Assembly (NCBI GenBank): GCA_027484425.1
Contig: JAIXSZ010000056.1
Location: 62,001 to 126,000 of the forward strand
From: Sphingobacteriales bacterium
GTDB lineage: Bacteria > Bacteroidota > Bacteroidia > Chitinophagales > Chitinophagaceae
Direction: 5' to 3'
DNA: 64,000 bases
Part shown: piece by piece, positions 2,739 to 16,091 of the stretch
Numbering within the stretch: position 1 is the stretch's first letter
How the letters are laid out: each line of letters begins with the position of its first letter
Program-made: the position numbers and the translations under genes
The notes under the pieces: model-generated
What the model was told of the DNA's origin: nothing
Database searches by the model: none
The model's input: the letters and a program-made list of their open reading frames with translations, nothing else

Positions 2739-4061
2739 TTAAGCTGGTTCTTTGGGTTCATCTGTTGTTAATTTCATGTTTCTTAGAGCGGGAGCCGTAA
2801 ACCAAGTAACCGCTACAACCACTAAAGTCATCACACCACCAAATACCACCGCTGGCACAGTGCCCATCAATCTAGCAGTAAGCCCACTCTCCATCGCCCC
2901 AAGTTCATTAGAGGAGCTAATAAACATAGTATTTACTGCCGCTACCCTGCCCCGCATTTTATCTGGCGTATGTAGTTGCAGCACCGTTCCTCTTATTACA
3001 ACACTCACCGCATCAAACATCCCCCCTGCAAACAACATTATTAAAGCCACCAAAAATCCTGCGGAAACATCGAAACCTCCAATGGAAAATAAAGAATGAG
3101 TACCAAAATAACCACAATAGCCAAAAACAACTGTAGTCAGGCCAAATCCCACTATACTCCATGCCAACTTTGCCCCCGGGTGACGGTGTAATGGAACCAG
3201 TGACATAATAAAAAGTGCAATAATGGTGCCAATACCAGGAGCAGCTCTCAACCATCCATACCCCACTTCGCCTACCTTTAATATGTCGTCAGCATAAACA
3301 GGCAGTAAAGCCACTGCACCACCAAACAATACCGCAAACATATCTAACGAAAGAGCTGCCAGAATAATTTGAGTACTAAAAACAAACCTTAATCCTTCTT
3401 TCAAACTTTTGATTGCAGGCTCCTTTGATGTGTTCAATATCGCTTGCTTGGGTATACGCAATACAGCAAACAGGGTAATCATTTCTACAATAGCCACAGT
3501 AAGTAAGCTCCACTCAAAACCTGAAAACGCCAACAAAAAGCCCCCTGCCAGCGGACCAAATACGGCCCCGGCTTGCCACGATGTGCTGCTCCAGGTCGTA
3601 GCATTGGGGTAAAGACTACGAGGCACCAACAATCCCATAAGTGCAAAAGATGAAGGACTAAAAAATGCCCTCAACGCACCACCTACAAAAATACCAGCAT
3701 ACAACAACCATACTATGGCTTTAACAGAGAACTGTAAGCGTGTATAGGGCAACGCCAACCCAACAAAAAATAAGGACAACAAAAAATAGGCTACAGTACA
3801 CCACAATATGAGAGTTCGTTTCTCTCGCTGATCTACAAAATGTCCAGAAAACAAAGAAAACCCAATAGCTGGTATCACTTCACATAATCCTATAATACCT
3901 AACGATAATTTGTCGTGAGTGAGCTGATAAACATAGTAACTTACTATAGCCGATTGCATATTCAGCGCCATAATAATGGAGAAACGCAGCAATAAATAAT
4001 TCCTGAAGAGTGGATACTCCAGTGCCTTATTTTTAGAAAAAAACGCCGATGAAATAGACAA
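2739..4061 (-). CDS. Major facilitator superfamily transporter (TTG start)
   Basis: About 440 residues with roughly twelve hydrophobic segments, starting in the MFS-like lead-in KNKALEYPLFRNYLLLRFS. The motif HFVDQREKRTLIL after the second helix fits the MFS loop 2-3 signature (G-x-x-x-D-x-x-x-R-R). It resembles the MFS_3/enterobactin-exporter-like efflux group; the substrate is not predictable. No in-frame ATG exists before residue 31, so the start must be TTG at 4061 or another non-ATG codon; an upstream in-frame stop lies near 4094. A TAAATTTG box at 4082-4089 supports initiation close to 4061. The C-terminal tail is short and charged. Confidence 0.85.
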   Translation of the reverse strand: MSISSAFFSKNKALEYPLFRNYLLLRFSIIMALNMQSAIVSYYVYQLTHDKLSLGIIGLCEVIPAIGFSLFSGHFVDQREKRTLILWCTVAYFLLSLFFVGLALPYTRLQFSVKAIVWLLYAGIFVGGALRAFFSPSSFALMGLLVPRSLYPNATTWSSTSWQAGAVFGPLAGGFLLAFSGFEWSLLTVAIVEMITLFAVLRIPKQAILNTSKEPAIKSLKEGLRFVFSTQIILAALSLDMFAVLFGGAVALLPVYADDILKVGEVGYGWLRAAPGIGTIIALFIMSLVPLHRHPGAKLAWSIVGFGLTTVVFGYCGYFGTHSLFSIGGFDVSAGFLVALIMLFAGGMFDAVSVVIRGTVLQLHTPDKMRGRVAAVNTMFISSSNELGAMESGLTARLMGTVPAVVFGGVMTLVVVAVTWFTAPALRNMKLTTDEPKEPA

Positions 4062-4297: not shown

Positions 4298-5554
4298 ATG
4301 AGCACCATCAAACAAATAACTGGCACGAGTATTATACAGGCTTTTCAGGAGCTCAGAGCCAATAAATTACGCACATTTTTGTCCTTACTGGGTATCACCA
4401 TCGGGATATTTTGCATCATATCGGTACTTACCGTACTGGATAGTCTCAAAAACTACATACAAAAAGACATGGCTACCTTAGGCAGCGATGTAGTCTATGT
4501 TGGCAGGTGGCCATGGATGGATGATGGTGGCGAATACAAATGGTGGGAATACTTCAGACGACCAAGCATGACGCCAGCAGAGGTAAAGGCAGTGCAATCG
4601 CAAGTACCCGATGTCTCTGTTGCCACACTATGCTTAAGCACAAACCGCATGACTGTCAAATATGACGACATGGAGCTGAGCAGTATCGTGGGTTATGCTG
4701 TGCTACCAGAGTTCGATAAAGTACAAAACATAGATGTTGCCAAAGGCAGATACCTCAGCACCTCCGAATTAGATGGGGGAAACAATGTAGTGGTCTTAGG
4801 ATATGCAGTTTATCGCAATATTTTTCCCGGTAGTATTGATCCCCTTGGCAAAAAAGTAACCTTCATGGGTAGAAAGTTTACTGTCGTAGGTGTGATGAAA
4901 TTTGCCGGTCAGAACATGGCTGGCTTCGACTACGACAATTCTGTAATATTTCCTTACTATGCTGCCACATCGCTTATTGATGTAAACTCACTGGATCATG
5001 ACCCATTTTTGGCAATAAAAGCAGCTAAAGGCAAAAACATAGACGATGTGAAGTACGAAGTAGAGGGAGTACTCCGTAAAATAAGAAAAGTCAGACCCGG
5101 TCAAGCCAACAATTTCGCACTGAATCAACTAAGTCAAGTATCAGAACGTTTAAACGATATTTTCGCTACTATAGATATTGTAGGTTGGTTCATAGGTGGT
5201 CTTTCGCTATTGGTAGGTGCTTTCGGAATCGCCAATATTATGTTTGTAACCGTAAAAGAACGCACTAAAATAATTGGTCTTAAAAAAGCAATCGGTGCCA
5301 AAAGACAGTCAATTCTTATGGAATTTTTGCTGGAAGCAGTGGTTCTTTCGCTTATTGGTGGTGTAGTAGGTGTCTTTATCGTTATACTTATCAGCTTTCT
5401 ACTTACATTTCTATTCGAATTCGAGGTTGTACTTTCATTTTTCAACTTCTTTATCGGTATATTTGTTTCTATAATTGTGGGTATTCTAGCAGGTATAATA
5501 CCAGCAATAAGTGCGTCTAGGTTAGACCCAGTAGTGGCCATAAGATCAAACTAG
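4298..5554 (+). CDS. MacB/FtsX-like ABC transporter permease
   Basis: 418 residues. An N-terminal helix (about 25-48, starting ELRANKLRTFLSLLGITIGI) is followed by a large periplasmic MacB_PCD-type domain (about 50-285) and three C-terminal helices (about 298-325, 345-375, 385-408) with the FtsX signature containing VTVKERTKIIGLKKAIGAKR. Such permeases work with a separate ATPase as mechanotransmission pumps for lipoproteins, peptides or macrolides. No ATP-binding subunit is adjacent, so the partner must be encoded elsewhere; orphan permeases of this kind are common in Bacteroidota. The gene ends 7 bases before the phosphoribosyltransferase gene, suggesting cotranscription. Confidence 0.9.
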   Translation: MSTIKQITGTSIIQAFQELRANKLRTFLSLLGITIGIFCIISVLTVLDSLKNYIQKDMATLGSDVVYVGRWPWMDDGGEYKWWEYFRRPSMTPAEVKAVQSQVPDVSVATLCLSTNRMTVKYDDMELSSIVGYAVLPEFDKVQNIDVAKGRYLSTSELDGGNNVVVLGYAVYRNIFPGSIDPLGKKVTFMGRKFTVVGVMKFAGQNMAGFDYDNSVIFPYYAATSLIDVNSLDHDPFLAIKAAKGKNIDDVKYEVEGVLRKIRKVRPGQANNFALNQLSQVSERLNDIFATIDIVGWFIGGLSLLVGAFGIANIMFVTVKERTKIIGLKKAIGAKRQSILMEFLLEAVVLSLIGGVVGVFIVILISFLLTFLFEFEVVLSFFNFFIGIFVSIIVGILAGIIPAISASRLDPVVAIRSN

Positions 5555-5561
5555 TTTTACA

Positions 5562-6062
5562 ATGACAAAAAAACGAGTACTCATCCTTGATAAAGAGCGT
5601 ATAGCCTTCAAAATGCGCAGAATGGCTTACGAAATATGGGAGCGTAATAGCGATGAGAAAGAAATAGTACTGATAGGCATAGAGGGTAGCGGAAACGTCG
5701 TGGCAAAAAATCTCGCCGCGATATTGGGGGAAATCAGCCCCTTAAAGATTAACCACATCACGTTTACCATCAACAAAAAGAGCCCAATGGATTATGTCTT
5801 AGATTTCGATACCAATCTAAATGACAAATTTATAGTGCTGGTAGATGATGTAGCCAACTCAGGCAAAACATTGATGTATGCATTGCATGGCTTGTTGTCA
5901 TACAATCTCAAAAAAGCTATGGTAGCCGTACTGGTCGATCGTAAACATAAATCATTCCCCATCGCTTGCGATATTGTGGGGCACACCGTAGCTACTACAC
6001 TGCAAGACCATATAGAAGTAGTAACAGGTGCCAACAAGGTCAAAGCTGTATACCTCGAGTAG
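5562..6062 (+). CDS. PyrR-like phosphoribosyltransferase
   Basis: 166 residues of the type I phosphoribosyltransferase fold. The PRPP-binding motif VLVDDVANSGKT is at 92-103, and the later VLVDRKHKSFPI (about 123-134) corresponds to the PyrR signature. PyrR proteins bind PRPP and uracil and may regulate pyrimidine genes. No pyr gene or attenuator is nearby here, so the substrate is uncertain. It lies 7 bases after the permease gene and about 45 bases before the VWA gene, on the same strand. PRTases are also reported among the genes associated with Ter-type stress systems, which makes this position worth noting. The family call is firm; the physiological role is not. Confidence 0.88.
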   Translation: MTKKRVLILDKERIAFKMRRMAYEIWERNSDEKEIVLIGIEGSGNVVAKNLAAILGEISPLKINHITFTINKKSPMDYVLDFDTNLNDKFIVLVDDVANSGKTLMYALHGLLSYNLKKAMVAVLVDRKHKSFPIACDIVGHTVATTLQDHIEVVTGANKVKAVYLE

Positions 6063-6096
6063 TACCACATTCCTTGTTGACCTGCACCAAATTTTT

Positions 6097-6104
6097 TACC
6101 TTTG
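6097..6104 (+). promoter_or_regulatory. -7 box immediately before the VWA gene (leaderless)
   Basis: TACCTTTG, an exact TAnnTTTG match, with a TTG at 6077-6079 in -33 position. It ends only 3 bases before the ATG at 6108, so a transcript from it would start at or beside the initiation codon. Confidence 0.55.
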
Positions 6105-6107
6105 GAT

Positions 6108-6782
6108 ATGGACGAATACATTTCTTTTGAGCAAATACCGTTTGGTAGCGACAATTTTGCCGACAACCCCGAACCCAGATGCCCCTGTGTACTCCTCTTA
6201 GACACATCGGGCTCTATGGCTGGTATGCCCATAACACAGCTCAATGAGGGTGTTCGAACATTCAGACAGGAATTACTGAGCGACCCATTGGCTACCAAGC
6301 GTGTCGAAGTTGCAGTGGTAAGTTTTGGACCAGTCAATATCGTTTCCGATTTCCATACAGTACCCAACTTCCATCCTCAAGAACTGGAAACTACCGGCGA
6401 CACTCCCCTCGGCGATGCTATACTAACAGGCATTGACATGGTAAATCGCCGCAAAAAAGAATACAAAGAAAATGGAATAGCCTATTACAAACCCTGGATA
6501 ATACTTATCACAGATGGTGCACCTACCGACGAATGGGCCGCCGCAGCTGCCGCAGTCCAAAAAGGTGAAGCCAATAAGTCTTTTGCCTTTTTTGCTATAG
6601 GGGTTGAAAGTGCTAACATGGACATCCTCCGCCAGATATCCACTCGTAGCCCATTAAAACTTAAAGGATTAATGTTCAGAGAATTTTTCATTTGGTTGTC
6701 TGCCTCTATGAAAATGGTCTCTGCCAAAAATCCCGGTACCACCATCAATCTATTACCACCTAGCGGCTGGTCTGAGCTATGA
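6108..6782 (+). CDS. VWA-domain protein, TerY/YegL-like (triad member 1)
   Basis: 224 residues, essentially one von Willebrand factor A domain. The metal-ion-dependent adhesion site is intact: DTSGS at 32-36, the TGDTPLGD threonine segment near residue 100, and ITDGAPTDEW near 135. The lead-in PFG..F..NPEPRCPCVLLLDTSGSM is characteristic of the TerY/YegL family. No signal peptide, so it is cytoplasmic. It forms the first gene of a VWA-PP2C-kinase set, where the VWA protein is thought to act as a metal-dependent scaffold or target of the kinase/phosphatase pair. The frame opens at a TTG two codons earlier, but the ATG at 6108 fits the family. Its stop overlaps the next start (ATGA). Confidence 0.92.
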   Translation: MDEYISFEQIPFGSDNFADNPEPRCPCVLLLDTSGSMAGMPITQLNEGVRTFRQELLSDPLATKRVEVAVVSFGPVNIVSDFHTVPNFHPQELETTGDTPLGDAILTGIDMVNRRKKEYKENGIAYYKPWIILITDGAPTDEWAAAAAAVQKGEANKSFAFFAIGVESANMDILRQISTRSPLKLKGLMFREFFIWLSASMKMVSAKNPGTTINLLPPSGWSEL

Positions 6783-7546
6783 CATGGAAAGCCATCGGAC
6801 AATCTATAACCGGAACCTCACATGCAGCTACAACATCAGGTTGCGAGGACACACTCTATTATGAATGCATCACTACACCCGATTCTGATTCTGTGCTTAT
6901 CGTCACAGTATCCGATGGTGCTGGCAGTGCGCTATACGGAGGCGATGGTGCAAAAATCGTAACAACCGAGGCCAATAAATACATCACGCTATTGCTGCAA
7001 GAGAATAGCAGCATAACTGTGACCGACATATATGCTATGGCAGAGCAAATTTATGATGTACTAGCCAACGCCGCTACAAACAATGATGTTGCAATAGAAG
7101 AATATTCCTGCACTATGGTGGGCGCTGTTGTTTCAAGCAAATATGCGCTATTTTATCAAATAGGCGATGGGGCTATAATACGCTCAAATGACGCTGGTGC
7201 ACTTTCTACTGTTTGGTGGCCTCACAACGGCGAATACTTAAATACTACCGCCTTTGTGACAGACAATGTATCAATGCCAGATCTGCAAGTAGTTCTTCTA
7301 AACGAAGAAATCAACGAATTAGCGCTATTTACAGACGGACTCCAGATGCTTACACTCAGTATGGACACTCTAACCGTTCATCAACCATTTTTCACTGGTT
7401 TGTTTCATCACCTGCGTTTGGCAGATACTCCCGAAAAAATAGCTACACTCAATACGATGCTAGCACAGTACCTCGATAGCCCTGCCATAAATTCCAGAAC
7501 CGACGATGACAAAACCTTATTCCTAGCTACAAGATTACCTGCATGA
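6779..7546 (+). CDS. PP2C-type Ser/Thr phosphatase, YegK-like (triad member 2)
   Basis: 255 residues with the PPM/PP2C metal motifs in order: VSDGAGSALYGGDGA (about 44-58), YQIGDGAII (about 126-134), ALFTDGLQ (about 181-188) and TDDDKTL (about 241-247). These supply the aspartates that bind the two catalytic metals, so an active Mn/Mg-dependent phosphoprotein phosphatase is expected. The start codon overlaps the stop of the VWA gene and its own stop overlaps the kinase start, both as ATGA, so the three genes are probably translationally coupled. The obvious inferred substrate is the partner kinase or VWA protein. Confidence 0.92.
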   Translation: MTWKAIGQSITGTSHAATTSGCEDTLYYECITTPDSDSVLIVTVSDGAGSALYGGDGAKIVTTEANKYITLLLQENSSITVTDIYAMAEQIYDVLANAATNNDVAIEEYSCTMVGAVVSSKYALFYQIGDGAIIRSNDAGALSTVWWPHNGEYLNTTAFVTDNVSMPDLQVVLLNEEINELALFTDGLQMLTLSMDTLTVHQPFFTGLFHHLRLADTPEKIATLNTMLAQYLDSPAINSRTDDDKTLFLATRLPA

Positions 7547-9471
7547 CTTTTACCGGACTACATAACGAATCATACATCACAGGCCGCGAGCTAGGGCGAG
7601 GTGGTGAAGGATGCGTATATGAACTCCAAAGTCATCGCGATTTGGTACTCAAACTATACACCGATCCCCTATCTGCTACCAAACAAGCCAAACTAGAGCA
7701 AATGATAGCTATTCGCACAGATGCACTAGCTAGTTATGCCGCACTACCTGCCGATCTCGTAAAAAACGCAAATGGAATGGTTTGTGGTTTTGTAATGAAA
7801 AAGCTCACTGCCTATGTGCCATTGCACCATGTATTTAGCCCCATGGATCGCAAAAAAATGTTTCCCGACAAAGGCTATAATTTTCTTGTTCATGTCGCAC
7901 GCAATCTCGCCACTGCTTTCCACCAGTTACATCAGGCTGGTATCGTTGTCGGCGATGTCAATGAAGGCAACATACTCATTAGCTCATCGGGATTAGCCGC
8001 ATTTATCGATTGCGATTCTTTTCAGATACCCAACGGCAACACCTACTTTTTTTGCGAGGTAGGCGTGCCCCGCTACACCCCACCCGAACTCCTTCGACTC
8101 CAATCCTTTGAGCGGGTAGTTCGCACCACCAACACCGACAATTTTTCCCTGGCTATACTGTTGTTTCAGTTGTTGTTTCTCGGCCGCCATCCTTATGCTG
8201 GTAAGCATAGAGGTGCTGCCGATATCGATGAAGAAACCGCTATAAAACAGCACCAGTTTGCTTACTCTTTACAAAACCCCAAAAAGAAATTAAGCCCTCC
8301 ACCCGATAGTTTCGATATCAACGCCTTACCCGAAGAGGTAATTGCACTTTTTCATAGAGCTTTCGAATCTACCGATAGACCCACACCTGCAGACTGGATA
8401 ACAGCATTGGGAACCATGCTCACCAACATCGTTACGTGCCCCATATCCAAGCTGCACACTTATCCCGCTACCCTCACCGAATGTCCTTGGTGCCAGTTTC
8501 GCAAAAACAGAGGTATCATGTACTTTCTCGATGATTCCTATCTCCAGGCCAACAATATGCTGCTGAACATCGAGCAGTTTATCAATGGCTTCAAACCCGA
8601 AACTATTTCGGTAAAGAAGATATCTCCCGGACCTTCCAAAACAAAGTTAACCCCCACCCCGCCTGGCACCTTACTCGCAAAGGCCAATGCTAGGCGCAGA
8701 TGGGTAAGTTTGTATCTGTTTGTCATAGGAGTAGTCATAGCTATTTTTTACCCCATTGTCTCGGTTTTATTTTTTGCGGCCGCCACTTGGGTATATAAAA
8801 AATCGGGCTGGGTAAAATTACTGGCTGCCGAACTCAAAAACCGGGTCAATCACCATTTTTCGTTGCACAATCGCCTTACTGCGCTCATCAAAAATTACGA
8901 ACAACCCAACGACGTAGCGCAGTACAACGAGGTATTGCACAAGATGCAGCAACTGATACACAATTTCAGACGGCTACCAGATATGCTCGAACAAAAGAAA
9001 AAAGCTGCGGAAGAAACCCTCTACAACCTACAGTTAGACGAATTCTTACGCCAGTTTCACATCAACGATTACACAATACCCTCCATCGGCAAAGTAAAAA
9101 AAACCGCACTGATCGACAATGGAATACGCAATGCCGCCCACATTTCCCGTCTAGCCACTACCAAAGTACCCGGCATAGGACCAGCTAACGAAGCCATTCT
9201 GCACAATTGGCGCAGACAAATGTCGGCAGGGTTTGTATACATCCCCGACAATTACCAGTTGAGTATCGCAATGCAAAAGGTAAACGATGAAGTACAACAA
9301 CTAAAGTACCAGCTAGAGCAGCACATACGAAAAGAATACCAAAACCTAAGCTTCCTAAAAACCAACATCAACAACAAAAACCGTCTATTGGAAATTCAGA
9401 TTCAGGAGCTAACCATGCAAGTACGCCAAGCAGAAGTGGACGTAGATGCTTTCAAAAAATTTGCGGCATAG
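7543..9471 (+). CDS. Membrane-anchored protein kinase with C-terminal helix-hairpin-helix, YegI-like (triad member 3)
   Basis: 642 residues. The kinase domain (about 10-290) has a glycine loop GRGGEG at 18-23, Lys37 in VLKLY, a catalytic loop GDVNEGN at 137-143 (variant of HRDLKxxN, retaining Asp and Asn), and a metal-binding DCDS at 156-159 in place of DFG. A PPE motif follows at 180-182. C299, C314 and C317 (CPWC) could form a small zinc site. One or two membrane helices lie at about 387-416. A coiled-coil region then leads to a helix-hairpin-helix at about 536-556 (KVPGIGPANEA). This architecture is that of E. coli YegI. The HhH hints at nucleic-acid binding, which is an inference. It is translationally coupled to the phosphatase gene. 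Confidence 0.92.
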   Translation: MTFTGLHNESYITGRELGRGGEGCVYELQSHRDLVLKLYTDPLSATKQAKLEQMIAIRTDALASYAALPADLVKNANGMVCGFVMKKLTAYVPLHHVFSPMDRKKMFPDKGYNFLVHVARNLATAFHQLHQAGIVVGDVNEGNILISSSGLAAFIDCDSFQIPNGNTYFFCEVGVPRYTPPELLRLQSFERVVRTTNTDNFSLAILLFQLLFLGRHPYAGKHRGAADIDEETAIKQHQFAYSLQNPKKKLSPPPDSFDINALPEEVIALFHRAFESTDRPTPADWITALGTMLTNIVTCPISKLHTYPATLTECPWCQFRKNRGIMYFLDDSYLQANNMLLNIEQFINGFKPETISVKKISPGPSKTKLTPTPPGTLLAKANARRRWVSLYLFVIGVVIAIFYPIVSVLFFAAATWVYKKSGWVKLLAAELKNRVNHHFSLHNRLTALIKNYEQPNDVAQYNEVLHKMQQLIHNFRRLPDMLEQKKKAAEETLYNLQLDEFLRQFHINDYTIPSIGKVKKTALIDNGIRNAAHISRLATTKVPGIGPANEAILHNWRRQMSAGFVYIPDNYQLSIAMQKVNDEVQQLKYQLEQHIRKEYQNLSFLKTNINNKNRLLEIQIQELTMQVRQAEVDVDAFKKFAA

Positions 9472-9574
9472 GTTATCAATACTACCCCTGAATCATTTAG
9501 TATATATTCCAACTGACAGACTGCAAAAAACTTATTACTATTCCAACACTCAGCAAACCAAAAACATATCTAAA

Positions 9575-10177
9575 ATGAATGACAAAGAGCAAAAGTTCTC
9601 ATTTACTGAAGATAATATCCTACTACAAATAACGCTAAGTATACCCGAACCAGTTATTCAATCAACAAACAATGTATTTCACGATTTGATGAGCTGTGTA
9701 ATTGAACAACAGATTCATTACCGAAGTACTAAAAAGGTGTTTGAAAAAATGCTCGACAACTCAAAAATCAAACTACTTAGTAAAGATAATTTTCATATTT
9801 TCGAGCAAAATTCTTTTACAAATGCCTCCATTTCCCAAAACAAGTGTGAAACTATTGCCAGCATACTGCAGTTTTGGGATACTAAAAATATTGATTGGCA
9901 TAAACTAACCGATGAAGAAATACGAGCAGAACTCTCAAACATTAAAGGTATTGGCAAGTGGACAATAGACATGATTTTGTTGTACACCTTACGTCGTCCC
10001 AATGTATTTCCGTTCGATGACTACCATCTAAAACTCATAATGAGTAGCCTGTATGGCCTAGACCCAAAAGTAAAATTGAAAGCAAATATGATAGAAATTT
10101 CAGAAAAATGGGGAGATCAGAAGTCGCTAGCTGTGTTGTACCTCTTGGCTTGGAAGGATTCAAAAAGAAAGTTGTAG
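9575..10177 (+). CDS. AlkA-type DNA-3-methyladenine glycosylase (HhH-GPD)
   Basis: 200 residues from the ATG at 9575. The HhH-GPD core is clear: the hairpin LSNIKGIGKWTIDMILLYTL near 130-150, followed by the catalytic-Asp segment FPFDDYHLK near 158-166. These enzymes excise alkylated bases in base-excision repair. There is no Fe-S cysteine cluster, which fits the alkylpurine rather than the EndoIII branch, and it is shorter than E. coli AlkA because the N-terminal beta domain is reduced. The frame opens at 9446 inside the kinase gene, but the internal ATG matches the family N-terminus and avoids the overlap. Confidence 0.85.
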   Translation: MNDKEQKFSFTEDNILLQITLSIPEPVIQSTNNVFHDLMSCVIEQQIHYRSTKKVFEKMLDNSKIKLLSKDNFHIFEQNSFTNASISQNKCETIASILQFWDTKNIDWHKLTDEEIRAELSNIKGIGKWTIDMILLYTLRRPNVFPFDDYHLKLIMSSLYGLDPKVKLKANMIEISEKWGDQKSLAVLYLLAWKDSKRKL

Positions 10178-10235
10178 TCTGGCTGCTAAAAATATAGTTT
10201 CTCTGCTCGAAACGCCTGGCTTCGTCCTTACTTAC

Positions 10236-10254
10236 GCAAGCGTCTTTCTTGCGA
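10236..10254. repeat. Intergenic hairpin after the glycosylase gene
   Basis: CGCAAG and CTTGCG pair across a 7-base loop within a GC-richer patch (about 10205-10255) of the 214-base gap 10178-10391. No U-run follows, so it is not a good terminator. The patch also has a short frame (...LLETPGFVLTYASVFLAK) that could be a gene remnant, but it is too short to call. Confidence 0.4.
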
Positions 10255-10391
10255 AATAATCAATTAACTATTTTACATTCATTAATTGTCAAAATAGAAA
10301 ATCCACAACCCAAAAGAATTTATTCAAGTCACATTTCATTGTCAATGCCTATACAGAAAACTAATACCATAAAATAATAAATAACTACAAC

Positions 10392-10970
10392 ATGAATCCA
10401 GAAGTAAATTGGTTTTTTGAAAAGTCAACAAAATGGCAAGAAGCCTACCAAGAGTTAAGAGAAATTGCACTTTCTTTTGATTTGACAGAAGAGTTAAAAT
10501 GGGGTTGCCCTTGCTACACAATCGGCAAAAGCAATATTTTTCTAATACACGGTTTTAAAGACTATTGTGCTTTGTTATTTATGCAAGGTGCTTTACTTAA
10601 AGACACAAACAATATTCTAATCCAACAAACGGAAAATGTGCAGTCGGCAAGGCAAATTCGTTTTACCAATGTTGAAGAAATTCTGAAAAGTAAATCAATT
10701 ATAGTAGCCTATATCCAACAAGCTATAGAACTTGACAAAGCAGGACTTAAAGTAGAATTAAAAAAGACTACCGAATTTACAATGCCCGACGAATTTCAAT
10801 TAGCATTAATCGAAATGTCCGACCTGAAAATAGCATTCGAGAAATTAACACCAGGACGTCAAAGGGGTTATTTGTTATATTTTTCTTCTGCCAAACAATC
10901 AAAGACAAGAAAAGAAAGAATTGAAAAGTATATTCCAAAAATACTAGACGGAAAAGGGTTAGACGATTAA
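10392..10970 (+). CDS. YdeI/OmdA-family protein (DUF1801 type)
   Basis: 192 residues. The first half has the DUF1801-like pattern (EELKWGCPCYT, then FLIHGFKDYCALLFMQGALL), and the second half ends in the conserved tail LTPGRQRGYLLYFSSAKQSKTRKERIEKYIPKI seen in YdeI proteins. Family members are described as OmpD-associated or bacteriocin-protection proteins, but a molecular activity is not established. No signal peptide, so probably cytoplasmic. A second divergent member lies at 49449-50060. The gene stands alone, with about 200 bases on either side. Confidence 0.82.
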   Translation: MNPEVNWFFEKSTKWQEAYQELREIALSFDLTEELKWGCPCYTIGKSNIFLIHGFKDYCALLFMQGALLKDTNNILIQQTENVQSARQIRFTNVEEILKSKSIIVAYIQQAIELDKAGLKVELKKTTEFTMPDEFQLALIEMSDLKIAFEKLTPGRQRGYLLYFSSAKQSKTRKERIEKYIPKILDGKGLDD

Positions 10971-11171
10971 CAGCGAAAAATAACACCTCACGGTTATTCC
11001 AGTCGTTCTTACGAGTCAACTGGGACAACCAATAAAAATACACTAGTTAAATATTCCTATATTATTCAACATGAATCTTACATCAAAACCAGTATTGGGC
11101 AACTAAATCTATACCTTCCCATTTACTTCATATCTTTAAGTCCATGTAAAAATTTAAAAACTATCATTCCA

Positions 11172-11642
11172 ATGTGGAAATACATCACCCAACAAATCAA
11201 CATAAAGACAGCAGTATTCATAATTACTATGAGCATAATGTCTAGCTCATGTGTTGCACAGAAGGAATTATCTTCCCCAGATCAGATAGCGGCAAGCTTT
11301 TTTAAGAGTTATGAGCAACATGGTTTCGATGCGGCAATTGAGAATATCTCTTTGTATACCGAGGCCGAAATGAGAAATTCTATGCCTTCGTTGAGGGACA
11401 CGCTGTCCAAAATAATTGATCTTGTTGGTAAATCCTTTTTGGGTTCAGAGGTTCTGTTCAAAAAAGATGTCTCTGCTAGTTTAAGCTATCATAGCTATAT
11501 TATCAAGTATCCATTGGCACCGTTACGGCTTACTTTTATCTTTTACAAACCAAGCGACAAATGGAGGGTTATAAATTTCTCTTTAGATGGAGACATGACC
11601 AGTGAAATGCAACAACTCGGTAGAATATACTATTTGAAATAG
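11172..11642 (+). CDS. Small secreted or lipoprotein, unknown function
   Basis: 156 residues. The hydrophobic stretch at about 13-27 ends in SSSCVAQ, giving a weak lipobox (Cys at about 29); cleavage by signal peptidase I after VAQ is also possible. The mature region (ASFFKSYEQHGFDAAIENI..., ending in FIFYKPSDKWRVINFSLDGD) looks like a small alpha+beta domain of the NTF2/DUF3887-like sort, but no signature residue confirms this. It is the second gene of a run of small proteins on the same strand with 80-180-base gaps. Function unknown. Confidence 0.6.
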   Translation: MWKYITQQINIKTAVFIITMSIMSSSCVAQKELSSPDQIAASFFKSYEQHGFDAAIENISLYTEAEMRNSMPSLRDTLSKIIDLVGKSFLGSEVLFKKDVSASLSYHSYIIKYPLAPLRLTFIFYKPSDKWRVINFSLDGDMTSEMQQLGRIYYLK

Positions 11643-11816
11643 CACATGAAAACCAGATGTACTACTTATATAAATAAGGTTTGGGTTTATTGAACACTTT
11701 TTTTACCACATAAATCCTGTCTCACACAACGTTTTTGTTTAGAAATCAAGACCAACAACGGCTGAAAATTGTGCTAGGTTGATGTTCATTGCTTATAGCG
11801 CAACAATAAAAAGTTT

Positions 11817-12389
11817 ATGTTCAGAGTATTTTTATTAACGACATTCATATTTACATTATTAATTAATGGTGTCGCGATGTGCCAGAATACCCACAGTCAA
11901 ATTGTGGAAGATATTTGTATGAATATCTTAATGCGCAACAGTTACGACTCCATCCAGTTAAACGTAAAAGGTCTTGGGGTATCCCCTATCGACCAAAGTG
12001 TAGTTGTTTTTACCCCTGATAGTCTAAGAAAATCAATTCTTGATTTTAGGCTTCTTGAAAAAAAAAATCAAACAGCAATATTACTTAATAAACATTTCCC
12101 GATATTTCCTCTTTCAGATACTCTTCACATAGTAGATTCGCTTGGTTCATTTGAAAAAGGCATAAAACAATTTAATGGTCATAGTTTCTTATTTGAGTCA
12201 AAAAAATCGAGTTTATCAAATACAAATACTATATACCTAAATCACGTTAGGTTTCGCAACAATACTATTGCTTTAAATTTCACATTTCCTAGCGATATCA
12301 ATTTAGTTTACACGGTATCCTTCACTTTGATTAATAAATCAGTGATTTTTTTTAGCTCTGACTTAATTGAAATACCCAGTTTAAATTAA
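11817..12389 (+). CDS. Small exported protein, unknown function
   Basis: 190 residues with an N-terminal signal sequence (hydrophobic 4-19, MFRVFLLTTFIFTLLINGVA) and a cleavage site near ALA/MCQ. The mature part is beta-rich with no cysteine pair or catalytic motif that I recognise. Base composition is very AT-rich, more so than the housekeeping genes in the window. It lies within the small-gene island. A poly-A run near 12059-12066 codes for lysines and could be a slippage site, but the frame is intact. Confidence 0.55.
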   Translation: MFRVFLLTTFIFTLLINGVAMCQNTHSQIVEDICMNILMRNSYDSIQLNVKGLGVSPIDQSVVVFTPDSLRKSILDFRLLEKKNQTAILLNKHFPIFPLSDTLHIVDSLGSFEKGIKQFNGHSFLFESKKSSLSNTNTIYLNHVRFRNNTIALNFTFPSDINLVYTVSFTLINKSVIFFSSDLIEIPSLN

Positions 12390-12390
12390 C

Positions 12391-12451
12391 GTCATTGTTC
12401 CAGTTGTTCCGAAGGGCCTGTTTTCTGTAGCAACAGCTGTAGAACAACGAC
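12391..12451. repeat. Imperfect inverted repeat between small genes
   Basis: GTCATTGTTC (12391-12400) and GAACAACGAC (12442-12451) are complementary at 9 of 10 positions around a 41-base centre. It fills most of the gap between two small genes. Integron attC core sites are not present. Confidence 0.45.
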
Positions 12452-12471
12452 TCAGAAATAAATAAACAAAA

Positions 12472-12897
12472 ATGAAAACATTAAAAATATTCAGAAGTTG
12501 CATTCTTGGGTTTTTAGCTGTAACAGTTACTTTTTCAGAAAAGTATTCTACTATTGCTTTTGCAGGGATGATTTTGACTATACCATTGTTTTATTTTTTA
12601 TTAAAGTTCATTTACCGAAATAGTCCACGAGTTGGTGGGGTTGTAACAGACAATTACGAAACTCGTTACGGGAGGGATATTGTAATTCAATTTGAATTCA
12701 ATAATATTACATATGATGTAACCAAAACATATGATTTAGATAACGCACCAATTGTTGGCACGCATTTGCCATTAGTCATAGACAAACAAAACGTACATAA
12801 CAGCGAAGTAGAAATAAATACAAACAAAGAAACACTCATGCTATCAGTATTATTTTTAATTGTGTTGATTACTTACATTTTAACTAGATGCGTGTAA
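12472..12897 (+). CDS. Small membrane protein, DUF3592-like layout
   Basis: 141 residues. Two N-terminal hydrophobic segments (about 7-20 and 28-46) precede a soluble beta-rich region (about 50-110, with VTDNYETRYGRDIVIQFEF and THLPLVIDKQNVHNSEV), followed by a C-terminal membrane helix (about 122-139). The order helix, beta domain ending in a pattern like P-V-x-Y-D-P, helix resembles DUF3592 proteins, but conservation cannot be judged from one sequence. No neighbour suggests a role. Confidence 0.6.
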   Translation: MKTLKIFRSCILGFLAVTVTFSEKYSTIAFAGMILTIPLFYFLLKFIYRNSPRVGGVVTDNYETRYGRDIVIQFEFNNITYDVTKTYDLDNAPIVGTHLPLVIDKQNVHNSEVEINTNKETLMLSVLFLIVLITYILTRCV

Positions 12898-12929
12898 TAA
12901 CCTCAGACTTTTCGATGCGTCACAAACTT

Positions 12930-12954
12930 GACGTCAGTCTTTTCGACTGGTGTC
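12930..12954. repeat. Intergenic hairpin
   Basis: CAGTC (12935-12939) and GACTG (12945-12949) pair around TTTTC, extended by GAC/GTC outside two unpaired bases. It is similar in sequence to the GCCAGT..ACTGGC hairpin at 14235-14251. Confidence 0.4.
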
Positions 12955-13072
12955 TACATCTGTGCCAGTGTTTTCTCGTTAATATATATTGAAATGTAAG
13001 TATTTAAAAAGCAGCTCTGGATAATGAAATATAATAGAAGGATGAAAAACTACATACGTAAACGGAATAACA

Positions 13073-13591
13073 ATGGGAACTCAACAACAGTTAAATGCAT
13101 TCAATAAAATTTGTATTGTGTTTTTGTTTTGCCTTTTGTCATTTAATGCAAAGGCACAGTTCTCTTTTAAATATGATAGTTCAATAAGTGTACTATATTT
13201 ATTTGAAAAAAATGGTGATACTGTAAAATGTTTAGATACTATGCTTTTTTTAAGTTCGTATAGATATTCCTTTCATCTAAGAGAAAGACAGATTCTGTAT
13301 TCATGGTTTGAGTACGACTTATTGTATCCAAATGCTCAATATGCTCTTACTTCATGTCTAATCAACGACAGTGGAAAATTCGCTAAATCCTCGCACACCT
13401 ACATACCATTAAGGAAATTCCCAATATTCAAAGAGAAAAAAATGAAAATAACCTTAAATCAATCAGGCATTTGCTTAAATTTTGAAAAAGGCAGTATACC
13501 TATTGTAGTGTTGGCATATTCCAATTTAGAAATGAATAGTAGTAAGTTTAATAAAGTACTAAAGAGAATTGCAAGAATGTTGCAAGAATAA
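13073..13591 (+). CDS. Small exported protein, unknown function
   Basis: 172 residues with a signal sequence (hydrophobic core IVFLFCLLSFNAKAQ at about 15-29, with a good AKA-Q cleavage site). The mature part is mostly beta and aromatic rich, with no family I recognise. It sits in the run of small AT-rich genes. An ATG earlier in the region is not in frame, so the start at 13073 is the natural choice although it places about twelve residues before the hydrophobic core. Confidence 0.55.
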   Translation: MGTQQQLNAFNKICIVFLFCLLSFNAKAQFSFKYDSSISVLYLFEKNGDTVKCLDTMLFLSSYRYSFHLRERQILYSWFEYDLLYPNAQYALTSCLINDSGKFAKSSHTYIPLRKFPIFKEKKMKITLNQSGICLNFEKGSIPIVVLAYSNLEMNSSKFNKVLKRIARMLQE

Positions 13592-13668
13592 CATTCCGCA
13601 GTTGTTGGTTTTGTTTTATGACAAAATACGGCAGAAAATGTACTTTTATGAATCACCTTTAGCCGATT

Positions 13669-13881
13669 ATGTCAGGAATAAGAAAGCTCTTAACACCATT
13701 AAAGCTGGCTACAGCCTACCTATTGTTTATAATAGTTTACCTGATTGGATGCAGTATAAATGATCCAAGTGTAGTTGGTTGGTCATATCTTTTTGGGATG
13801 GCATTATTTTTCTCAGATCTTCCGAACGGACGTGCAAATGGTAGTGGCAGTAAAAAGGAGTCAAATCAAAATGCAGACTAA
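13669..13881 (+). CDS. Possible 70-residue membrane protein
   Basis: 70 residues with hydrophobic segments at about 14-28 and 38-48 and a charged, Gly/Ser/Asn-rich tail. It is followed after 5 bases by the next small membrane-protein gene, which favours both being real and cotranscribed. No homology is recognised, and its short length leaves doubt. Confidence 0.4.
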   Translation: MSGIRKLLTPLKLATAYLLFIIVYLIGCSINDPSVVGWSYLFGMALFFSDLPNGRANGSGSKKESNQNAD

Positions 13882-13886
13882 TTTTT

Positions 13887-14177
13887 ATGAAATTTCTAGC
13901 TATCGTTTTTAACATTTTTGTACTGTTAATACTAGGAGTATTCCAGTTTTTGATGATTGGCTTTTCCATCGCTCCTGAACCTCATCCCGGAAATGCGCAG
14001 ACCAGCCAAATAAATTTTGATTCGAATATCTTGTTCAAGCTGTTTCTTGAGTGGATTTTGGGGCTTGGGGTGCTGTTATTTGTAAATAAGGCTGTATTCA
14101 AAAGCAGAACGGCATTCCAGATTCTTGGGATAGAATTTGTATGTATCATTCTGATGTATTTATACCTAACGTTATAA
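13887..14177 (+). CDS. Small three-helix membrane protein
   Basis: 96 residues with three hydrophobic segments (about 2-28, 50-68, 78-95) and a short polar loop with PEPHPGNAQTSQ. It begins 5 bases after the preceding small membrane protein. Function unknown; no motif recognised. This is the last gene of the small-gene island before the stem-loop cluster. Confidence 0.5.
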   Translation: MKFLAIVFNIFVLLILGVFQFLMIGFSIAPEPHPGNAQTSQINFDSNILFKLFLEWILGLGVLLFVNKAVFKSRTAFQILGIEFVCIILMYLYLTL

Positions 14178-14204
14178 AAAAGACGCAAAGGAATATCCAG
14201 TTTG

Positions 14205-14400
14205 CTGTAGGTTGTACCTACAGGTTGCACGGTAGCCAGTATCCGACTGGCATAAATACATAATAGCTATTGAGCAGTTTTATGCACCAGCCCCAAAGGG
14301 GCGCAATATCATAGCGGTGGGCAAAGCCCATCGTAAATCACAAGTTTATAACCTAGCCCCAACGGGGCGGAATATCTCAAATCAGCAGGTATTGCCCACC
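14205..14400. repeat. Dense stem-loop repeat cluster
   Basis: Successive hairpins: CTGTAGGT/ACCTACAG (14205-14223), GCCAGT/ACTGGC (14235-14251), and two copies of a 22-base unit AGCCCCAA(A/C)GGGGCG(C/G)AATATC at 14289-14310 and 14355-14376, each a GCCCC/GGGGC hairpin. Between and after them GGTGGGCAA (14316-14324) is repeated inverted as TTGCCCACC (14392-14400). The unit structure resembles REP-like interspersed elements. There is no gene in 14178-14669; the rest of the gap shows only a promoter. Confidence 0.65.
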
Positions 14401-14615
14401 GATAACTATCACTGTTACTAAGACAAGAACCAATCATCCCTGCCCTTCCTGTAATCATATAATCGTGTTCAGACTAAAAAAACACATTAAACTTCTGAAA
14501 ATAAAACCACTTATCCACAATTTTCACACCCAAAAACCTTAGTACAAATCCTCTACAACACAAGCCCACAGCACCATACAGCCCACGAAAGGAAATAAAT
14601 ACAAATTTCACCTCA

Positions 14616-14647
14616 TTTGTTGGTCTCAAATACCCATCTCAACTTTG
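14616..14647 (+). promoter_or_regulatory. Putative promoter of the HTH-protein gene
   Basis: TTTG at 14616-14619, a 20-base spacer, then CAACTTTG at 14640-14647. That is seven of eight bases of the relaxed Bacteroidota -33/-7 arrangement, 22 bases before the ATG. Confidence 0.45.
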
Positions 14648-14669
14648 TGATACTAAAAATCCTACTACC

Positions 14670-16091
14670 ATGACCCTAACAGACCAAAAGAAACAAGCCC
14701 TTGAGCTTTATGTCAACCAATCCTTTACCCAGCAGCAAGTAGCCGATGCTATTGGAGTTTGTATCCGCACCTTCCGCAACTGGGTCAAGCAACACGCCTG
14801 GGATCGCCTGCGTCTGGCTACCCACCAAGCCCCAGCATTAATAGCCGACAATTTCAGCAGCCAGCTCGTAGAGCTACAAAACAACATCGCCGCTCGCGAA
14901 CCCGGCAAACGCATACCTACCATGCAAGAAATGGAGATCATGCGAAAGCTAACCGTATGTATAGCCAACACCAAAAAGACGGTATCATTACCCCAGGTCA
15001 CACAAATGATGCGCATGTTTCGCGCTTTCGTTTTCGACAACCGTTCAAAACCCTACGCCCAAGGCGTAGCCGACCTTATCGATGGCTTCATCGAGGCGCG
15101 CTCGCGTTTCGGTTACGCCCCCTTCGAACTCGAATTTGGCGTTGAAAAAATCCAGCACATCGACCCACTCTACAGTCCCTATGTCGATACCATAGCCAAA
15201 GAAACCACCGAACCCGTAATCCCAAGATTTTACGAACCACCAAACACTACTCCACCAGCACCCAGCAAACGAACGCACGTCATTGATACCAGCACCTGGA
15301 CCGACGAAATGCTCCTAGCTATCAACGAAGAACTCAGCAACCACGAAGCCATCAAAAACATGCCACCCGAACAACAAAAAACCTATGCCGAATTGTCCCA
15401 AATCCTAAAGCCAGTCATGGATAGTAGATTGCCAAAAACCAACGACCCAACTCGCAAAGAACAGGAAGCTACCAGCAACCAACCAGACAACCTCGAAAGC
15501 ATGCTCACACGTATCAGAAAAGCATTCCTCCAAAATCACCCCCTTCAGCCAGATTACGAAAAACCCAAAACGACCAGCAATAAAGCATCTTTACCGGAAA
15601 ATGAAACCTCATTGATAATCAACGACTTAAGTGCCAAAACACATGAAAACACCGGCAACAAAGCGGCAATTTATGAAAACCTCATGCACACCCCACAACC
15701 CATAAACACAAAATCAAATATCACAACTCCCTACCCCGTAAACCAACCTGAAACCACTAGCAAAACAGCACCATTAACGGAAAATGAAACCTCATTGATA
15801 ATCAACGACTTAGGTGTCAAAACACATGAAAACAACCTATCAGTAGCCGTAGCTTTTAGCGAAGGATACGGCAACGAACCGGCAAAACCCATCGACCCAT
15901 TGTTTGTAGGTTACCCCACCTCCAGTACACCCCCCGACCCTACCGTGCCCTATACTTATTACAATGGCAGAATGCTCCTCACCAAGTACCCCGATGGTAG
16001 CATCCGTTACGACTATGGTGGTGGTCGCCCCGCCGTCACCATCAAAAAAGGTGGCCCCGCCATCCTCGAGCGCCGTGTTTTCTACATCTAG
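14670..16091 (+). CDS. HTH protein resembling phage terminase small subunits, with repeat-containing linker
   Basis: 473 residues. An N-terminal helix-turn-helix (about 18-45, FTQQQVADAIGVCIRTFRNW) and a following helical region (about 50-170) look like the DNA-recognition part of a terminase small subunit. The middle (about 190-390) is Pro/Thr/Asn-rich and probably disordered, and holds two copies of a segment containing ENETSLIINDL. The C-terminus ends in a compact aromatic/glycine piece (YYNGRMLLTKYPDGSIRYDYGG). No large terminase, portal, capsid or integrase gene is near, so it is not part of a visible prophage. GC content is visibly higher than in the preceding island. Function unknown; DNA binding is inferred from the HTH. 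Confidence 0.6.
   Translation: MTLTDQKKQALELYVNQSFTQQQVADAIGVCIRTFRNWVKQHAWDRLRLATHQAPALIADNFSSQLVELQNNIAAREPGKRIPTMQEMEIMRKLTVCIANTKKTVSLPQVTQMMRMFRAFVFDNRSKPYAQGVADLIDGFIEARSRFGYAPFELEFGVEKIQHIDPLYSPYVDTIAKETTEPVIPRFYEPPNTTPPAPSKRTHVIDTSTWTDEMLLAINEELSNHEAIKNMPPEQQKTYAELSQILKPVMDSRLPKTNDPTRKEQEATSNQPDNLESMLTRIRKAFLQNHPLQPDYEKPKTTSNKASLPENETSLIINDLSAKTHENTGNKAAIYENLMHTPQPINTKSNITTPYPVNQPETTSKTAPLTENETSLIINDLGVKTHENNLSVAVAFSEGYGNEPAKPIDPLFVGYPTSSTPPDPTVPYTYYNGRMLLTKYPDGSIRYDYGGGRPAVTIKKGGPAILERRVFYI
15595..15835 (+). repeat. Direct repeat inside the HTH-protein gene
   Basis: A 58-base segment at 15595-15652 recurs at 15778-15835 with only two mismatches; the offset is 183 bases, exactly 61 codons, so the reading frame is kept. 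It encodes the repeated ENETSLIINDL..KTHEN segment. Confidence 0.85.

Follow-up and report, generated by a model that had tools for sequence, protein, structure and literature searches.

The window analyzed here is a 64,000-nucleotide stretch of contig JAIXSZ010000056.1 (positions 62,001 to 126,000, forward strand) from the Sphingobacteriales bacterium assembly GCA_027484425.1. It contains three genes that adjoin on one strand and encode, in this order, a VWA-domain protein, a PP2C-family phosphatase and a Ser/Thr kinase, which we call the triad. A phosphoribosyltransferase (PRTase) gene lies directly upstream. The products of the triad carry a metal ion-dependent adhesion site (MIDAS), a candidate zinc knuckle and a helix-hairpin-helix (HhH)-like element, as follows.

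6108-6782, plus strand: YegL-like VWA-domain protein (Pfam VWA, 2.8e-10), with an intact MIDAS (DTSGS...T...D) and a CPC motif
6779-7546, plus strand: PphC-like PP2C-family protein phosphatase (Pfam PP2C_2, 7e-40)
7543-9471, plus strand: YegI-like Ser/Thr kinase (Pfam Pkinase, 1.1e-11), predicted to be membrane-anchored
8437-8493, plus strand: zinc-knuckle candidate C299-x5-H305-x8-C314-x2-C317, directly behind the kinase domain and putatively metal-binding
8668-8802, plus strand: hydrophobic double helix, residues 376-399 and 404-420, a probable membrane hairpin of predicted topology
9073-9210, plus strand: HhH-like tip, residues 511-556, which in the structural model caps a long antiparallel coiled coil

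A first-pass annotation, made from the letters of the window alone, had described a PRTase followed by a coupled VWA-phosphatase-kinase triad. The coordinates of these four open reading frames (ORFs) are real, and every product matches the expected Pfam family, including Pribosyltran for the PRTase (1e-16). We also found both of the ATGA overlaps that it described within the triad, at 6779-6782 and 7543-7546. The start of the VWA gene was corrected to ATG 6108, from TTG 6102 in the ORF list.

The triad was compared with YegL-YegK(PphC)-YegI of E. coli, the match that had been proposed for it, and the resemblance is thorough. Gene order is identical, and all three proteins are colinear over their full length, with identities of 59% between the VWA protein and YegL, 35% between the PP2C protein and PphC, and 30% between the kinase and YegI in full-length alignments. 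Like the window kinase, E. coli YegI has the Cys and His residues of the zinc knuckle, a hydrophobic segment and an HhH-like tail, and its hydropathy maximum lies at residue 393, compared to 392 in the window kinase. The two loci differ in detail: E. coli K-12 has yegJ between pphC and yegI, whereas the window triad has no insertion, and YegI has DSD where the window kinase has DCD and a Ser where the latter has Asn143. E. coli YegI is described as a membrane-bound kinase that autophosphorylates and is dephosphorylated by PphC, and a passage of the same paper calls the conditions that promote yegI and pphC expression undefined (PMC13232886). Autophosphorylation of YegI is also mentioned in PMC12189002. 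We conclude that the locus is very probably a complete, stand-alone three-gene phosphorylation switch of an already known kind, the YegL-PphC-YegI type, which occurs in both bacteria and archaea; the PRTase is most likely adjacent to it by chance.

We then asked how widely this arrangement is kept, using the best 80 loci from a VWA-profile scan that confirmed 555 or more as related. They come from Bacteroidota, Proteobacteria, Methanoregula, Pirellulales and others; the 38 closest (L054-L091) mostly have Bacteroidota titles, and one of them, L080, is titled Williamsia. VWA and PP2C genes occur together in 79 of the 80 loci, and the complete VWA-PP2C-kinase order in 71. Within the order to which the genome belongs, the kinase query matches 36 of 298 genomes, and a full-length triad kinase is present in six, the window genome included. 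The other five keep VWA-PP2C-kinase, with no PRTase in the fetched stretches (the contig of one, L034, breaks off shortly before the VWA gene).

Residue conservation was assessed in 54 triads, namely the 52 of the 71 complete triads that passed a length filter, the window and E. coli. The following catalytic and metal-binding positions are invariant in 54/54: D32, S34, S36, T99 and D136 of the VWA MIDAS, Asps 46, 130, 186 and 243 of the PP2C protein, and K37, D138 and D156 of the kinase. Asn143 of the kinase is kept in 44. The VWA protein is the slowest-evolving subunit, with a median pairwise identity of 60.7%, against 37.6% for PP2C and 31.2% for the kinase, and its CPC motif is near-invariant; both statements are somewhat inflated, as the VWA was the search bait and the seed patterns of the scan contained CPC, so that conservation of this motif arises partly by selection. 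The window-E. coli pair in the same alignment gives 58, 34 and 30%, leaving the ranking unchanged. Identities of the three subunits correlate across triads (r 0.86-0.93). At the level of the MIDAS core, the D, S and S remain fixed in all 80 VWAs (L054-L133) despite variable free positions: DTSGS in 46, DTSIS in 7, DTSYS in 7, DNSWS in 6 and other forms in 14.

A structural model of the kinase, with a predicted local distance difference test (pLDDT) score of 90.9 from 52 sequences, has PknB (5u94, TMt 0.72) as its best match in the PDB. The Cys-His-Cys-Cys knuckle behind the kinase domain, which the first-pass annotation overlooked, would bind zinc, and C299, H305, C314 and C317 are invariant in 54/54 triads. 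The predicted membrane segment was confirmed as a prediction: hydropathy peaks at 2.77, and the model places helices at 376-399 and 404-420. This hydrophobic double helix suggests a hairpin, which would leave both the kinase and its tail inside the cell. In a model of the tail (m33ccd4af2494, pLDDT 96.3), a long antiparallel coiled coil ends in an HhH-like tip. Searching this fold against the PDB returned nothing at E 0.001, and a looser listing, with scores up to Z 10.4, contained mostly coiled-coil and helical proteins, which is not evidence of kinship.

The tail had been described as a DNA-binding-type HhH. Hairpin motifs are indeed present, VPGIG at 542 and, 30 residues earlier, the less canonical IPSIG, but the DNA-binding label goes beyond what the weak Pfam matches support: IMS_HHH at 0.016 and HHH_5 at 0.32 both fall below cut-off, as does HHH_5 in E. 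coli YegI (1.6e-4). At least one [VILT]xG[IVFLM]G hairpin occurs in 47 of 58 aligned kinases, and 9 of the 11 without one are archaeal. From these motifs, the tail may bind nucleic acid.

The PRTase belongs to a set of features upstream of the VWA gene:

2739-4061, minus strand: MFS transporter (Pfam MFS_1), divergent from the permease and in the same conserved block as the PRTase
4298-5554, plus strand: MacB/FtsX-type ABC permease (Pfam MacB_PCD and FtsX), 7 bp ahead of the PRTase
5562-6062, plus strand: PyrR-like phosphoribosyltransferase, outside the triad and the last gene of the upstream conserved block
6074-6104, plus strand: Bacteroidota-type promoter-like site, comprising TTG at 6074-6076, 20 bp and TACCTTTG at 6097-6104

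In the first-pass annotation, the PRTase was read as possibly supplying or sensing a nucleotide linked to the phospho-switch, which would make it a fourth working part of the module. The PRTase and VWA genes are adjacent on the same strand, with 45 bp and no overlap between the PRTase stop and the VWA ATG, and the title of a Ter paper names a nucleoside-like metabolite. Yet none of the 80 related loci holds a PRTase in the flank examined, which reaches at least 1 kb upstream in 71 and at least 5 kb in 62, and the order PRTase-VWA-PP2C-kinase is conserved in none of them. A PRTase profile built from 15 relatives gave no match in these loci even at E 10, although it does pick up the window PRTase and each of its 15 members. 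Within the order, the PRTase is widespread while the triad is sparse: 278 of 298 genomes have a PRTase match at E 0.001 (257 of them below 1e-20; the remaining 21, with weaker matches, may represent a paralogue), against six with the full-length triad kinase.

Where the PRTase does occur, it has other company. Its four closest relatives in the sample of the order (L036-L039) lie in the arrangement MFS (divergent), permease, PRTase and asparaginase, with no triad, and among all 15 PRTase neighborhoods fetched from that sample the triad is found in none and the permease beside the PRTase in five (L036-L039 and L050). A PRTase match is present in all 12 triad-bearing genomes queried, although two (G300 and G301) have fragments only and three distant genomes show 40-42% identity. 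In the seven PRTase neighborhoods fetched from triad-bearing relatives (L148-L154), the permease is present in 7/7, MFS in 6/7, asparaginase in 5/7 and the triad in 0/7; L149 and L150 also share the window's upstream genes at 743-2122 and 2188-2682.

These neighborhoods indicate how the PRTase came to be next to the triad. In L150, asparaginase and then dnaX follow the PRTase. The best asparaginase match in the window genome (82%) is on contig C29, next to a dnaX-like gene whose N-terminus is almost the same. Because these two genes sit on another contig in an arrangement that matches L150, the comparison of gene orders places a cut in the block directly behind the PRTase in this lineage, at the site that the triad now occupies. 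L149 too has a different gene behind its PRTase, so the cut may predate the window genome. The triad (6108-9471) has a G+C content of 44-46%, slightly above the upstream block (41-43%), the whole window (40%) and the stretch that follows it (35-37%), which may hint at a separate origin of the triad. The distribution and neighborhoods of the PRTase, together with the promoter-like site that separates the two genes, make a role for the PRTase as a fourth component highly improbable; it is most likely a chance neighbor from a different, conserved gene block. The best PDB sequence matches of the PRTase are PyrR proteins (4e-19), and PyrR is the closest solved family by this comparison, with a match to NCBIfam PyrR (4e-27, 94.7 bits) that lies below the membership cut-off of 138.

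The promoter-like site was also overlooked in the first-pass annotation. With TTG 20 bp ahead of it, the element TACCTTTG conforms to TAnnTTTG, the -7 consensus of Bacteroidota (PMC7366714), and ends 3 bp before the VWA ATG. This suggests that the triad has its own promoter, and a start at this site would yield an almost leaderless mRNA. The consensus occurs at -11/-12 in five of the six closest relatives (L054-L059), and the count for that position stays at 5 across all 38 closest loci. Within 60 bp of the VWA gene it is found in 6 of the 38, where the motif frequency of the window itself would predict about 1.2, in relatives that are not independent of one another.

The triad had also been likened to the TerY-P triad of Ter stress systems. 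TerY-P-like modules are described as combining a VWA protein, a PP2C protein and a Ser/Thr kinase with a C-terminal zinc ribbon (PMC11090510), and H. pylori has been described with a TerY-P island (PMC4978471). The window triad fits this description in its protein families, as in the TerY-P of Ter and CoCoNuT systems, and in the putatively metal-binding Cys-His-Cys-Cys knuckle behind its kinase. Its VWA protein, however, is only distantly TerY-like, with about 30% identity to plasmid (enterobacterial) TerY among the matches listed (25 of 2,325 records), against 59% to YegL, and its kinase adds the predicted membrane hairpin and the coiled-coil/HhH tail. Linkage to ter genes was not seen in searches that covered TerD and TerC but not TerB or the remaining ter families. 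The first-pass annotation saw no TerD, and in fact TerD (PF02342) was not found in the whole genome, while two TerC-family genes are present on other contigs and none in the window. A further set of VWA-PP2C-kinase genes, linked to GAP1-N2, is reported to be confined to actinobacteria and associated with GTPase systems (PMC7159879), whereas Pfam scans of 11 window proteins showed no GTPase. The same 11 proteins include no restriction/McrBC family.

The Ter resemblance raises the possibility that the triad is a metal- or membrane-stress sensor feeding a switch, with the zinc knuckle as the sensing element, as in the metal-sensing hypothesis for TerY-P quoted in PMC11090510. Consistent with this, the knuckle is invariant and the MIDAS intact, and a TerC-family gene lies about 0.45 kb before the VWA gene in two Taibaiella-titled metagenome-assembled genomes (L055:8800-9546 and L057:8773-9525). 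These are the only TerC genes near the triad in the 80 loci, however, and the missing TerD and the low identity to plasmid TerY also speak against this possibility. We regard this sensor as a speculative reading, rather unlikely on present evidence.

A second possibility is a function in anti-phage defence or abortive infection, similar to the defence-type TerY-P of Gao et al. Modules of the TerY-P kind whose kinase has an OB-fold are reported to act in defence on their own, and most Type II and III-A CoCoNuTs are accompanied by TerY-P (PMC11090510). In the window kinase the tail was modelled as coiled coil/HhH-like; no specific OB-fold search was made. The sparse distribution of the triad (6/298) and its variable contexts would suit a defence gene, and the window kinase matches 15 PADLOC defence models, with PD-T4-6 best at 2.8e-10 and mad6 at 3e-9. 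E. coli YegI matches less well, with four weak matches (best 1.2e-4), and neither YegL nor PphC has a PADLOC match. The window VWA and PP2C proteins gave no PADLOC match even at E 10, in a database for which the presence of TerY-P models was not established.

Neither the neighborhood nor phage genomes lend this idea much weight. We scanned 123 neighboring proteins with PADLOC (127 came from L054-L091, of which 4 were left out) among 252 picked, with no control set. At E 1e-5, 113 families were matched and none had more than two members, so that no defence island was seen among the scanned neighbors of the 38 closest loci. Three families had two members, among them DndA and SspA, cysteine-desulfurase families whose models match housekeeping enzymes too. 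Only 3 of 50,697 phage records match the VWA protein, the best being an unannotated 11.7 kb record (39% identity, E 1e-39). Additionally, cross-phylum conservation at the level of the window and E. coli VWA proteins would be high for a defence gene. We therefore consider a defence function improbable, and favor a stand-alone phosphorylation switch of the YegL-PphC-YegI type.

All-against-all clustering of the flanking ORFs from the 80 loci agrees with a unit of three genes, as only the triad genes are widely recurrent (67-72 loci each). A conserved fourth gene was rejected: the next cluster, of SDR-type genes, spans nine loci, and the remaining clusters of four to six loci are antisense ORFs, generic protein families (ABC ATPases, for example) or blocks common to few loci. 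The SDR-type gene directly follows the kinase in the five closest relatives, L054-L058 (for example, L054:13464-14258), with a GNAT-type gene nearby; it is not behind the window kinase.

Other neighbors are confined to a few loci. In two Flavipsychrobacter-type loci, 0.8-1.0 kb without a sizeable ORF separates the PP2C and kinase genes (L064:11434-12424 and L065:11434-12232), a gap that recalls the position of yegJ in E. coli K-12. The Hsp70 gene yegD adjoins yegI in E. coli, and Hsp70-type genes, probably housekeeping DnaK, lie one gene past the kinase in two Mucilaginibacter loci (L086:14567-16420 and L088:14720-16573). E. coli also has alkA near yegI, and an HhH-GPD DNA glycosylase-like ORF follows the window kinase at 9446-10177, with a Pfam match just short of the cut-off. 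The start listed for this ORF falls within the end of the kinase gene, and ATG 9575 appears likelier. An AlkA link was rejected, since it recurs in 0/80 loci. A DUF1963 gene is convergent behind the kinase in L079, L081 and L082. Just beyond the triad in a Pseudoflavitalea locus (L032:1596-6494, same contig as L081) are bpMoxR, bpX0/X1 and bpX4, genes of the MoxR-vWA-beta-propeller ternary system. Within the window, an A+T-rich stretch at 10200-16000 (37% GC) contains the gene for a 473-aa protein (14670-16091) with an N-terminal homeodomain/transposase-like helix-turn-helix, a weak match below cut-off.

Because the triad is homologous to YegL-PphC-YegI, it should work as in E. coli. We propose that the kinase is anchored by its hydrophobic hairpin, and that the kinase domain, the zinc knuckle and the HhH-tipped coiled coil are probably cytoplasmic. 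By homology to E. coli, the kinase would autophosphorylate, and it probably phosphorylates the VWA subunit, outside targets, or both; by the same analogy, the PP2C protein would reverse this phosphorylation. The VWA protein, with its MIDAS intact, would most likely serve as a metal-dependent adaptor or switch that binds the target, or as a substrate. The three genes would be translationally coupled, with a separate promoter at the VWA start codon probably driving their transcription.

Several observations weigh against this account of a self-contained switch. The triad is not strictly obligate, as no kinase was found beside VWA-PP2C in 9 of the 80 loci. Two of these (L089 and L100) stop at or just past the known genes, and two (L066 and L071) have 1.4-2.3 kb of room. 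Because the other five (L070, L072, L074, L094 and L098) have at least 2.7 kb, some VWA-PP2C pairs apparently lack a neighboring kinase. The correlated subunit identities, which have no species-tree control, perhaps reflect only shared ancestry, and in L054-L058 the SDR-type gene may be a local fourth partner. The strict promoter motif is not within 60 bp of the VWA gene in 32 of the 38 closest loci, and leaderless mRNAs are reported to be rare in B. thetaiotaomicron, with about 3.7% of 5' untranslated regions shorter than 10 nt (PMC7366714). Finally, no biochemical data on Bacteroidota triad members came up in the literature.

Since the VWA protein evolves slowly, its conservation suggests that it, rather than the two enzymes, touches a conserved partner. 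Its median divergence is clearly lower than that of the kinase and PP2C, its MIDAS is invariant and its CPC motif near-invariant. A bolder extension, which we offer tentatively and think less likely to be right than wrong by some distance, is that the YegL-type triad is a portable signalling unit of bacteria and archaea with the VWA protein as its real core; this core would act as a metal-gated phospho-adaptor on a widely conserved target and the HhH-tipped coiled coil of the membrane kinase would relay a nucleic-acid or envelope signal.

Our analysis removes as false a tempting four-gene link between the PRTase and the triad, and assigns the locus to a family that can be studied genetically through its member in E. 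coli K-12. The comparison yields specific residues, in the zinc knuckle, the MIDAS and the CPC motif, that are relevant to the E. coli triad as well. The cross-phylum conservation of the VWA protein is the single point of possible interest to specialists.

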